Assembly (NCBI GenBank): GCA_017396945.1
Contig: JAFQKI010000002.1
Location: 1 to 64,000 of the forward strand
Source of the DNA: Muribaculaceae bacterium
Lineage (GTDB): Bacteria; Bacteroidota; Bacteroidia; Bacteroidales; Muribaculaceae
Reading direction: 5' to 3'
DNA: 64,000 bases
The notes below the pieces were generated by a model. It saw only the letters and a program-made list of their open reading frames with translations, had not been told where the DNA came from and did not search any database. A program made the position numbers and the translations under genes. Shown piece by piece: positions 7,534 through 19,386 of this stretch (within the stretch, counting starts at the first letter, position 1; every line of letters starts with the position of its first letter).

Positions 7534-8811
7534 ATGCAGGCTCCGTTGGCTGAGCGACTACGTCCAAAGTCGCTCGATGATTACATAGGACAATCACATT
7601 TGGTGGGCGATGATTGCATTTTACGCCAAATGATAAACTCCGGTAAAGTTTCCTCATTTATACTTTGGGGACCTCCCGGCGTTGGGAAAACCACATTAGC
7701 TCGCATAATCGCAAACACGACCAAATCACCCTTTTACACTCTTAGCGCCGTACACGCCGGAGTTAAAGAGGTCAGAGATGTGCTTGACCGCTGTCGCGCC
7801 GATGCACAAAGCGTATTCACCCAAGGACGCCCGATATTGTTTATCGACGAAATCCACCGCTTTAACAAGTCTCAACAAGACAGCCTATTGGGTGCGGTAG
7901 AAAGTGGGATTGTAACACTAATTGGAGCGACAACCGAAAACCCTTCTTTTGAGGTAATCAGGCCTCTCCTTTCACGAGCACAGGTTTACACCCTTAAACC
8001 TCTTGACGCCGAAGAGTTAACAACATTATTAAACCGTGCGTTAACAACCGATGAGATTTTAAAACAACGTAAAGTAAATGTCGAAAGCACCGATGCGTTA
8101 TTTAGATTTTCAGGTGGCGACGCCCGAAAACTTCTTAACATCCTTGACCTATTAGAGCAATCCACCACACAAGATGAAACATTGGTAATAAACGATGAAC
8201 TTGTAACCAAACGGCTACAAGAAAATCCCATGGCATTTGACAAAAACGGCGAGATGCATTATGACATAATCTCGGCATTTATAAAAAGCGTGCGCGGTAG
8301 CGACCCTGACGCCGCGATATATTGGCTCGCAAGGTTAATCGCCGGAGGTGAAGACCCCAAGTTTATTGCCCGACGACTCGTTATTCTTGCGTCAGAAGAT
8401 ATAGGATTGGCAAACCCAAATGCACTATTACTCGCAAACGCGACATTTGACACTATCCATAAAATCGGATGGCCCGAAGGGCGCATCCCACTTGCAGAAT
8501 GTACTATATACCTTGCCACATCACCCAAAAGCAACTCGGCATACATGGCTATAAATCAGGCGCTGGAATTTGTTAATCAAACCGGCAACTTACCTGTTCC
8601 CTTACATCTGCGCAATGCACCTACAAAGCTAATGAAAGACTTAGGCTATAGTCAAAATTACAAGTATTCACACGACTATCCGGGAAACTTCGTACGCCAA
8701 CAATTCATGCCCGAAGAAATCGGTCACCCTACTTTTTGGAATCCGTGTGACAATCCGGCAGAAAACAAGCTACACGAGCTAAACAATCATCGCTGGAAAT
8801 CAAGTAATTAA
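7534..8811 (+). CDS. rarA: Replication-associated recombination protein RarA (MgsA), AAA+ ATPase
   Basis: The 425-residue protein is a full-length RarA/MgsA/WRNIP1-family ATPase. It begins with the family motif PLAERLRPKSLDDYIGQ, followed by Walker A GPPGVGKT (46-53), Walker B IDEIHRF (104-110) and the sensor segment LIGATTENPSFEV. The C-terminal half holds the helical tetramerisation region (ARRLVILASEDIGLANP, APTKLMKDLGY). It acts on stalled forks and single-strand gaps through SSB. The ATG at 7534 is the only start that keeps the conserved N-terminus, and a -7 box sits 35 bases upstream. It appears to be a single-gene unit. Confidence 0.97.
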   Translation: MQAPLAERLRPKSLDDYIGQSHLVGDDCILRQMINSGKVSSFILWGPPGVGKTTLARIIANTTKSPFYTLSAVHAGVKEVRDVLDRCRADAQSVFTQGRPILFIDEIHRFNKSQQDSLLGAVESGIVTLIGATTENPSFEVIRPLLSRAQVYTLKPLDAEELTTLLNRALTTDEILKQRKVNVESTDALFRFSGGDARKLLNILDLLEQSTTQDETLVINDELVTKRLQENPMAFDKNGEMHYDIISAFIKSVRGSDPDAAIYWLARLIAGGEDPKFIARRLVILASEDIGLANPNALLLANATFDTIHKIGWPEGRIPLAECTIYLATSPKSNSAYMAINQALEFVNQTGNLPVPLHLRNAPTKLMKDLGYSQNYKYSHDYPGNFVRQQFMPEEIGHPTFWNPCDNPAENKLHELNNHRWKSSN

Positions 8812-18304: not shown

Positions 18305-18348
18305 AATAACCCCGGGGTGTCGCGCGACGCAACACCCCGGGGGTTATT
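18305..18348. terminator. Very stable GC-rich hairpin between dps and the convergent barrel gene
   Basis: A 16-base arm (AATAACCCCGGGGTGT) pairs with a 17-base arm that differs by one extra C, around an 11-base loop of CG repeats. It lies between the two convergent stop codons. There is no clean T run, so it may act as a bidirectional transcription block or a 3-prime-end stabiliser for either transcript. Confidence 0.65.
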
Positions 18349-18368: not shown

Positions 18369-18971
18369 TTAAAACTTATAACCTATTGACAATGTCAGAT
18401 TTGAATTTCGTACTGCTTCGTCCACCTCTTTTGCGACATTAACCAAGCCGAAATCATATCCAACAGAAATCGGAACTCTATTACTTAATTCTACTCCAAG
18501 ACGAAAACCTAAACCAAAATCAAACCGATTCACTCCTCCTTCATCACTAAATGTATCTACTTTTGCTTTATCGCCCATTGATGCCACACTCGCTTTTCCA
18601 AACAGCCCAAATGAAAAATAAGGACCAAACTCACCAAATACTGCGACATTTTCATTAAATACATATTTGTATCCAAAATGAACCGGGATCTCCAAATAGT
18701 ACGCATTAAAATTCACATCTAACAAATCTCCATAATCTTTTTCTGCGCCCTTCAACGACAACAACGCGGCGCCATTAATATATGCACCATTAAAAACTGA
18801 TGGCAAATCTTTCCCAATTCTAACACCCGCATGAAAACCGATTTTAGAATCTAAAGAACTCATGCTTGATAAATTCATACCGGCTAAAACCTCAACACTT
18901 GTGTTTTGAGCTGACATTGGCTGAGCTGACAAGCATAAAACGCCCAACAATGCAAAAAATACTTTTCTCAT
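18369..18971 (-). CDS. Outer-membrane beta-barrel protein (PorT-like)
   Basis: The 200-residue protein has a signal peptide (ending SAQPMSAQ, residues 1-22) and alternating amphipathic strands typical of small 8-stranded barrels: GFHAGVRIG, AYYLEIPVHFGYKY, AVFGEFGPYFSFGLFG, DFGLGFRLGVEL and a C-terminal ITL-type strand ending in Phe (SIGYKF). The terminal aromatic residue is the BAM insertion signal. PorT-like/outer membrane beta-barrel family membership is clear by pattern; the ligand and role are unknown. It lies downstream of the structured RNA and may be read from the same promoter, giving a 275-base leader, because no closer -7 box is visible. Confidence 0.85.
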   Translation of the reverse strand: MRKVFFALLGVLCLSAQPMSAQNTSVEVLAGMNLSSMSSLDSKIGFHAGVRIGKDLPSVFNGAYINGAALLSLKGAEKDYGDLLDVNFNAYYLEIPVHFGYKYVFNENVAVFGEFGPYFSFGLFGKASVASMGDKAKVDTFSDEGGVNRFDFGLGFRLGVELSNRVPISVGYDFGLVNVAKEVDEAVRNSNLTLSIGYKF

Positions 18972-19042
18972 TTTTGTTAAATTTTGTGCATCATTAGGCT
19001 CTTATGATGCAGTTATAAAAGCAGAAAGTGTGAGCCTACTTC

Positions 19043-19248
19043 GCGTCTATCCTAACGGGTGGCTCTGGACTGCCAAAGTTGTAGATAAACTGAAATGCTC
19101 ACACCTTTGGCGTCATATATGAATTTAACATATAACAAAGCCAAAGGATAACGCATTCAATACCCCTACAACTTCTTGAATTGTCCAGATTCTCCGTTAA
19201 GGAATAGAGCAAAACGCTTCCTAATATGTAATTTCGTCACAAAGTGCG
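19043..19248 (-). ncRNA. Structured RNA with 6S RNA-like architecture (candidate)
   Basis: Transcribed leftwards from a strong promoter, the sequence folds into one long interrupted hairpin. Helices, in plus coordinates, are 19043-19058 with 19194-19217 (GCGT plus CTATCCTAACGG, two bulged A), 19065-19070 with 19183-19188 (CTGGAC), 19076-19084 with 19166-19174 (AAGTTGTAG), then an open internal loop of 19 nt on each side, and 19104-19111 with 19140-19147 (CCTTTGGC) capped by an AT-rich stem. A closing stem, a symmetric central bubble and a terminal stem over about 175 nt is the 6S RNA plan, in which the bubble mimics an open promoter. The identity is inferred from shape; a long leader of the downstream barrel gene is the main alternative. 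The 3-prime end is not defined. Confidence 0.5.
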
Positions 19249-19254
19249 ACTATG

Positions 19255-19285
19255 CAAATATACATATCTTTTAGAGATTTCACAA
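19255..19285 (-). promoter_or_regulatory. Promoter for the structured RNA
   Basis: The minus strand reads TTG (19283-19285), 20 bases of spacer, then TATATTTG (19255-19262), a complete Bacteroidetes promoter. Transcription would start near 19248, just before the hairpin. Confidence 0.75.
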
Positions 19286-19352: not shown

Positions 19353-19386
19353 AAAAAAGAATGCCAACCTTTTTAGGTTGGCATTC
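19353..19386 (-). terminator. Intrinsic terminator after the M18 aminopeptidase
   Basis: On the minus strand GAATGCCAACC and GGTTGGCATTC form an 11-base-pair stem with a 6-base loop, followed by TTTTTT. Confidence 0.92.

Follow-up and report, generated by a model that had tools for sequence, protein, structure and literature searches.

Genomic context and layout of the element

In the window, i.e., the whole 64,000-nt stretch of DNA analyzed here, a structured RNA element is located directly upstream of a gene for a 200-aa outer-membrane beta-barrel protein (18971-18369, minus strand), for which it occupies the position of a leader. The RNA-plus-barrel unit is situated between an M18 peptidase gene and a Dps gene; strong terminator-like inverted repeats lie between the barrel and Dps genes (18309-18343) and behind the M18 peptidase gene (19360-19386). 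The RNA is encoded on the minus strand, where, from 5' to 3', a promoter, a start hairpin, a 195-nt core, a T-rich tract, the hairpin H4 and the start codon at 18971 follow one another:

19255..19262, minus: promoter P2, -7 box TATATTTG of the TAnnTTTG type, with TTG 20 nt upstream of the box
19236..19250, minus: 5' hairpin GTCGCACTTTGTGAC at the expected transcript start
19028..19222, minus: conserved RNA core of 195 nt, matched end to end by covariance model R1 at 161.6 bits, this copy being one of the 28 that built the model
19222-19214, minus: strand e, AGGAAGCGT, partner of f
19183..19199, minus: 5' strands of arm 1, comprising R2 5' (19199-19194), stem A 5' (19192-19189) and R3, a 7-nt loop strand (19189-19183)
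19181-19178 and 19175-19165, minus: 3' strand of stem A and 5' strand of R4, just beyond the arm 1 span
19146..19155, minus: strand f, the 5' side of the bubble described in an earlier note, partner of e
19104..19147, minus: hairpin 2 (CCTTTGGC ... GCCAAAGG), with the inner stem TATATG/CATATA
19097..19104, minus: strand g, GTGTGAGC, the 3' side of that bubble, partner of h and in other copies also of u1
19053..19085, minus: arm 3 partner strands, R4 3' (19085-19075) and R2 3' (19058-19053)
19075-19072 with 19063-19060, minus: hairpin B, enclosing R3 3' (19070-19064)
19028..19036, minus: strand h, GGCTCACAC, at the 3' edge, partner of g, its upper part also complementary to the H4 loop
19015..19027, minus: T-rich tract TTTCTGCTTTTAT, directly 3' of h, intrinsic-terminator-like
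18988..19010, minus: hairpin H4, GCATCA-TAAGAGCCTAA-TGATGC, before the start codon; its loop GAGCCTA (19001-18995) has its complement TAGGCTC at 19038-19032
18369..18971, minus: beta-barrel gene (Pfam OMP_b-brl / OMP_b-brl_2), starting 56 nt past h

The available part of PMC7366714 gives TAnnTTTG as the consensus of the -7 box. This motif occurs within 125 nt upstream of the element in 87 of 90 copies, and hairpins of differing sequence were seen by eye, uncounted, at the expected transcript start of other copies.

The earlier note on this DNA had described a rod-like structured RNA with no reading frame and with a promoter, TTG-N20-TATATTTG, pointing into it. All of these features are present, and their recurrence in many copies, with the same architecture and compensatory changes, lifts them far beyond chance. 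No ORF of at least 60 aa overlaps 19028-19222, the promoter is directed into the element from the minus strand (-7 box 19262-19255), and the helices quoted as CTATCCTAACGG, CTGGAC, AAGTTGTAG and CCTTTGGC are the reverse complements of R2 plus d, R3, R4 and H2, respectively. It is the strand that had to be revised: the letters quoted were those of the plus strand, whereas the RNA is that of the minus strand. Since promoter, T-tract, H4 and gene all lie on the minus strand, a plus-strand transcript was rejected.

The minus-strand fold of 19020-19252 reaches -84.3 kcal/mol (z -6.5, equaled by none of 200 shuffles), and the plus-strand fold of 19043-19262 has a z of -6.8. As a nested structure, the element forms a single long rod in which f and g face each other unpaired.

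Distribution and copy number of the RNA family

Among 12 genomes of the genus, the own genome included, a DNA search gave matches in 6, with five in one genome (G007). A two-block pattern derived from 11 full copies recovered 24 stretches among 84,980 species genomes, all of them Bacteroidales-titled and assigned to Bacteroides, Phocaeicola, Parabacteroides, Prevotella, Paraprevotella, Muribaculaceae and others. R1, the covariance model built from 28 copies and applied at a match threshold of E <= 0.001, detected the element in 159 of 297 Muribaculaceae genomes, representing 24 of 30 genera, in 85 of the 393 genomes of a Bacteroidales sample that took in the own genome and members of the family, and in 4 of the 395 genomes of a phylum-wide sample that also contained the own genome; these counts are lower bounds, as the filters were strict and the best 6-8 candidates per genome were scored.

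The element is multicopy. With at most 8 candidates scored per genome, G007 and G237 each carry it at six or more separate places, and each of these two genomes has the highest tally of matches, at least eight, a figure in which antisense matches can count. Because the element is nearly palindromic, many matches below 41 bits are antisense shadows of a stronger match. The own genome, which is 64% complete, holds four sense-strand places at E < 0.001, and the helices of the two weakest were checked by eye. On contig C5 of G237, three RNA copies of near-equal score lie within 11.4 kb (locus L105, 4724-16119); by eye, each heads lipoprotein, secreted or zinc-ribbon genes, and the neighbors resemble DNA methylase, restriction enzyme and protein kinase genes.

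At gathering scores, Rfam 15 gave no match in the window and none in 14 loci holding other copies. Five divergent loci produced one chance match (E 0.63), and the region itself, searched at E up to 10, gave nine chance-level matches to unrelated families, the best at E 0.68 and all of them far below gathering. Phages and plasmids returned no match in a blastn search with one copy, and viral contigs none with one exact pattern. In the open-licence PMC literature, no paper was recognized as describing the element, and none of the ncRNA candidates of oral bacteria in the available part of PMC7160235 was noticed to fit it. As far as Rfam 15 and the searches of this literature show, the multicopy RNA family would be new.

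Conserved arms and inter-arm helices

Comparison of the copies shows two predicted arms (e-f/a-b/A and g-h/c-d/B) whose loops and flanks pair with one another through R2, R3 and R4, an arrangement that would correspond to a pseudoknot or to two folds. In the 28-copy alignment, the 66 pairs that make up the two arms and the three helices between them hold in 86.7% of cells, and 35 of them display changes on both sides; double-change cells number 182, compared with 67.0 in shuffles (none of 500 as high) and at most 76 with slid partners. Covariation of the long-range helices is very strong. In the 80-copy alignment, which was fitted to the two arms only, with R2 and R3 outside the model that produced it, R2 and R3 are paired in 96.4% of cells, all 12 of their pairs carry both-side changes, and 253 double-change cells stand against 62.8 in shuffles and at most 49 in slid versions. 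The compensatory changes that the earlier note had proposed to look for in related genomes are thus found in the helices themselves. Double changes occur in each of a-b, c-d, R2 and R3. R4 is paired in 55.2% of cells in the 28-copy alignment, where it is badly aligned; when the copies were searched one by one, it was present in nearly all of them.

The helices were also scored within and between copies, using 91 copies picked from the matches after removal of near-duplicates and contig-end copies, a set that a redundancy cut reduced to 88 and the R3 filter to 84. Across these 84, strands score higher against their partners in the same copy than against those in different copies, both for R2 (17.2 in cis vs 9.3 in trans) and R4 (18.7 vs 12.3) and for a-b (15.9 vs 13.0), c-d (15.6 vs 12.3) and stem A (9.2 vs 7.4).

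R3, the loop-loop helix, exists in at least 11 sequence versions, e.g., UCUGGAC, CUUCGAC, UCACCACA, UCUGGUAA and UCGCCAAA. These versions were selected as the best complements, in a few copies wrongly (e.g., in L023, L081, L093, L104 and L116), so that the fair test of R3 is the fixed-column count over the 80 copies. The adenines flanking the R3 loop strand are 100% conserved in these 80 copies, as would be expected for a kissing loop.

The two strands that lie open in the nested rod have partners elsewhere: in the 28 copies, f pairs with e in 85.5% of cells and g with h in 98.8%. The pairing of GTGTGAGC (19104-19097) with GCTCACAC (19035-19028), which had been noticed as an alternative to the rod, is therefore borne out, and g-h is, as judged from the aligned copies, among the most constant helices of the family. 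The 19-by-19-nt open bubble proposed earlier does not hold as a conserved single-stranded region; the conservation of its two sides, f and g, is explained by their pairing with other strands.

On geometric reasoning of our own, without computation, the arms and the inter-arm helices may not all be compatible in one structure. A rod with a-d and b-c pairing as the sole fold is not required, since L016, L017 and L019 keep a-b and c-d with a weak a-d (by eye), and it was set aside.

Leader position, T-tract and hairpin H4

The position of the element relative to genes is regular. The nearest downstream ORF is co-directional in 82 of the 88 copies with enough sequence (upstream: 67 of 87); of these 82 ORFs, 59 start 47-107 nt past h. 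A T-tract (at least 8 T in 14 nt) follows h in 83 of 91 copies, compared with 7% of background windows. The element thus has two of the features of attenuator leaders, a stem directly before a U-tract and a same-strand gene behind it.

H4 is located after the T-tract and before the start codon, and its loop is complementary to the upper part of h. Mean scores of h are 15.7 against the H4 region of its own copy and 12.0 against those of other copies (84 copies, median rank 0.92). Pairs of H4 loop and h recognized by eye include GAGCCUA/UAGGCUC in the window, GGGCCUU/AAGGCUC in the sister copy L002, GAACCUC/GAGGUUC in L040, UGGAACUA/UAGUUCCA in L067 and UGAGACUG/CAGUCUCA in L061; in some copies, e.g., L020 and L034, no clear H4 was seen by eye. 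The explanation as a long leader, which the earlier note had kept as a second option, is supported by these data, namely the co-directional ORF, the confined gap and an H4 that covaries with the element.

Upstream strand u1 and tandem promoter boxes

In about half of the copies, a second candidate partner of g lies upstream of the promoter. A strand complementary to g, termed u1, starts 30-39 nt upstream of the -7 box in 41 of the 82 copies that have 320 nt of upstream sequence and a promoter box, and is found in none of these 82 in a control slot 60 nt further up. With the slot fixed, the copies' own g gave 41 matches and the g of other copies 25.9, the latter still matching this often because g varies little. 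The letter next to the anchors (GCTCA in the slot, TGAGC in g) provides a less biased test: u1 and g are Watson-Crick there in 25 of 25 copies, counted singly irrespective of relatedness, with the letter pairs A/T in 17, G/C in 6 and C/G in 2, and h has G at the same letter in all 21 scorable copies. We prefer this fixed-anchor count to a second one, in which, of 94 positions without a Watson-Crick g-h pair, 83 had one between u1 and g; that figure is biased, because u1 had been chosen as the best g match and the g-h register extended past the helix. The neighbor of u1, u2, matches f with a score of 17.0 in cis and 13.4 in trans (41 copies).

Within 110 nt upstream of u1, a second TAnnTTTG box (P1) is present in 21 of 41 copies, versus 2.1 in shuffles. 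A slightly different cut gave P1 in 22 of 43 copies; in 14 of these 22, its distance is 17-21 nt to u1 and 52-55 nt to P2. A transcript from P1 would begin with u1, and one from P2 would be without it. The candidate strands that could compete for the terminator stem are u1 for g and the H4 loop for h; in the window copy, neither u1 nor a P1-type box was found.

In nested folds of 43 copies, the mean probability of g-h is 0.07 in P2 transcripts and 0.02 in P1 transcripts, and that of g-u1 in P1 transcripts is 0.23; nested minimum-energy folds favor the rod over either pairing. As g-h and g-u1 are rare in nested folding, the proposed switch is unreadable from minimum-energy folds.

Genes around the RNA copies

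A scan of 79 first downstream proteins gave matches to 58 Pfam families, so that there is no shared pathway by which to name a signal. Most frequent are OMP_b-brl (7) and OMP_b-brl_2 (4, overlapping), BspA-type leucine-rich repeats (4), DUF4595 (3), DUF4988 (2) and OmpA (2). By a crude hydropathy rule, 55 of 77 downstream proteins possess a hydrophobic N-terminus, compared with 62 of 154 other genes of the same loci; the genes headed by the family often encode surface or secreted proteins. Orthologous copies are found at the same place in sister species, and a unit of AraC-like regulator, RNA and OmpA-like gene is kept in G000, G001 and G006.

The M18 peptidase gene is present in 12 of 12 genomes of the genus. 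Dps comes next after it in G004, G005 and G011, where the RNA-plus-barrel unit is missing; in G001 the unit is present at the M18 peptidase gene and is followed by another gene. For the remaining seven relatives, R1 found no copy in the stretch beside the peptidase gene, which is cut short by a contig end in two of them.

On contig C4 of the own genome, one copy (132562-132763; 7563-7764 of locus L107), which has no evident intact cargo gene, precedes an EF-G paralog (EF-G2, fusA2-like) by about 280 nt. At the other 28 EF-G2 loci, R1 gave nothing at E up to 0.01, with two chance-level matches of 11.5 and 13.5 bits, and thus no copy there in sister species; sequence homology among the fusA2 regions reaches back no more than about 110 nt from the start codon, stopping short of the RNA. 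EF-G2 as a target was accordingly rejected as accidental. The available parts of three fusA2 papers (PMC6989115, PMC10294740 and PMC10994844) do not mention the element.

Among the upstream neighbors, of which 54 out of 63 listed were scanned, there are resolvases (N-terminal domain in 4, HTH domain in 5), protein kinases (4) and phage-type integrases (3). A serine recombinase gene ends directly before the element in L012, L015, L020, L023 and L028, with 50-80% identity to that of L012 and with a fragment in L023. Small tyrosine recombinases lie upstream in L013, L034 and L075 (Pfam) and in L113 and L124 (by eye). Genes resembling Ser/Thr protein kinases were seen by eye directly upstream in L004, L047, L103 and L105, and Pkinase was assigned in 4 of the 54 proteins scanned.

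Proposed switch and alternative explanations

Considering the conserved pairing together with the leader position, we think it probable, by a moderate degree, that the window element belongs to a multicopy family of structured leader RNAs which head Bacteroidales genes and control them in cis as attenuator-type switches. The comparison of copies brings out the helices, their positions and the alternative partners predicted for g (h or u1) and for h (g or the H4 loop), and from these we infer the regulatory step. Strand g would serve as the switch strand. Held on h, it would form the g-h stem which, with the T-tract, would end the transcript early; captured by u1, a strand expected only in transcripts that begin upstream of P2, it would free h and let the polymerase read on, and the freed h could then pair with the H4 loop and act near the start codon. 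In copies without u1, the window copy included, the competition between g-h and h-H4 alone would be left, and a protein, a ligand or the inter-arm pairing might tip it; for copies with u1, promoter choice would be the simplest signal.

We offer, as a tentative and rather speculative extension, an RNA switch set by the choice between tandem promoters typically 52-55 nt apart, in which u1 of P1 transcripts would capture g and allow read-through and P2 transcripts would form g-h and stop at 230 nt, a single class of switch controlling dispersed surface and secreted genes of Bacteroidales. Several points count against the attenuator-type leader: the absence of u1 from the window copy and about half of the others, the frequent matches of the u1 slot to the g of other copies, the rarity of g-h and g-u1 in nested folds, the spread of downstream proteins over 58 Pfam families, the copies with no clear H4, and the own-genome copy on C4, which precedes an unrelated gene whose upstream conservation does not reach back to the RNA.

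A riboswitch-like leader that binds a metabolite or a protein, with the conserved GAAGCGUUU, A-UCUGGAC-AA and GGC...GCC as the binding site, is possible though doubtful as the main explanation, and it is compatible with an attenuator-type leader, not opposed to it. The strong conservation of letters, including the invariant adenines on either side of R3, and the occurrence of one leader over many unrelated genes speak for a binding site; however, the conserved letters lie mostly within helices or the loop helix, and the downstream functions indicate no single ligand.

It is unlikely, in our estimation, that the stretch from P2 to the T-tract is a complete gene for a discrete trans-acting small RNA of about 230 nt which a protein gene merely follows. 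Such a gene would account for the promoter, the 5' hairpin and the terminator-like end, and multicopy small RNA families do exist in Bacteroides: the available part of PMC11697453 describes the FopS RNAs, about 65-70 nt long with a terminator hairpin, and a six-member family of B. thetaiotaomicron (BTnc020 and others) that adjoins transposases and invertases. Yet H4, which would lie outside such an RNA, matches the h of its own copy, and the nearest downstream ORF is co-directional in nearly all copies. Both families resemble ours as multicopy RNAs of Bacteroidaceae, the second also in its neighbors, as some copies here lie by such genes. FopS is ruled out by the 65-70 nt length described for it in that part of PMC11697453; identity with the six-member family, likened here by its description and not by sequence, is possible, since five copies of the element lie just behind a resolvase gene.

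We consider it improbable that the element acts primarily as DNA, i.e., as a site at which a mobile gene cassette recombines or inserts and which folds as single-stranded DNA, the RNA features being of secondary importance. The serine recombinase genes that end just upstream of five copies, the small tyrosine recombinases beside others and the presence or absence of RNA plus barrel as a unit beside the M18 peptidase gene in sister species would fit a mobile cassette. An integron attC site was considered on hairpin shape and cassette-like context only. Against a DNA element stand the conserved promoter, T-tract and same-strand gene, the covariation of u1 with g and of H4 with h, the lack of an adjacent recombinase at most copies and the lack of viral-contig, phage or plasmid matches at the sensitivity used.

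A Bacteroidales 6S RNA, or a 6S-like decoy of RNA polymerase, as suggested in the earlier note, was rejected and retains a very small probability at most. 6S RNA is usually encoded by one or two gene copies, is not tied to a downstream gene and has a conserved single-stranded central bubble that mimics an open promoter. The element shares with 6S RNA (RF00013, RF01685) the length of about 200 nt, a rod-like minimum-energy fold and alternative pairing by the central region, but differs in occupying at least six places in single genomes (four in the own genome), ahead of unrelated genes, in the cis coupling of H4 and the downstream gene, and in the pairing of both bubble sides, which leaves no open-promoter mimic. 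The Rfam 6S models matched neither in the window at gathering nor in the own genome and were not among the nine matches of the region at E up to 10, a negative that is weak alone, since RF00013 is silent in all 41 genomes searched (own and 40 relatives) and RF01685 matched in no control genome. A 6S RNA with pRNAs has been reported for B. thetaiotaomicron (available part of PMC7366714).

Relation to known regulatory RNAs

In its predicted working, the attenuator-type leader proposed here would be most like terminator/antiterminator attenuators and, in the same respects, riboswitches, with which it shares the leader position, candidate mutually exclusive helices, a stem followed by a T-tract and a same-strand gene; we assign it to no family. 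Unlike in attenuators and riboswitches, no leader peptide was noticed and no ligand is known. It differs from attenuators further in that two long arms are joined by three inter-arm helices, the candidate antiterminator strand comes from the choice of an upstream promoter, and one RNA heads many unrelated gene families.

The two-armed architecture has another parallel. CopA-CopT of plasmid R1 was reportedly described by Kolb et al. 2000 as an extended kissing complex, in which two stems keep their helices and loop and flanks pair between the stems in a four-way junction topology. The available part of PMC10798244 cites Kolb et al. 2000 on CopA-CopT. The likeness lies in intra-arm stems and inter-arm helices that are both conserved; CopA-CopT, however, is an antisense pair, whereas both arms here belong to one RNA molecule.

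Control of the cell surface in gut Bacteroidales matters for colonization, and it is our impression from the papers searched that few large regulatory RNAs are known in these bacteria. A leader RNA present in more than half of the sampled Muribaculaceae (159 of 297) would provide a regulon readable from DNA, and the loop pair, in its at least 11 versions, lends itself naturally to the study and engineering of RNA switches. Should promoter choice set the fold, start-site selection would be tied to termination.

In four Muribaculaceae copies (L004, L005, L006 and L010), paired TGTACA motifs lie upstream of u1, before the distal promoter box; they look like the operator of a regulator.
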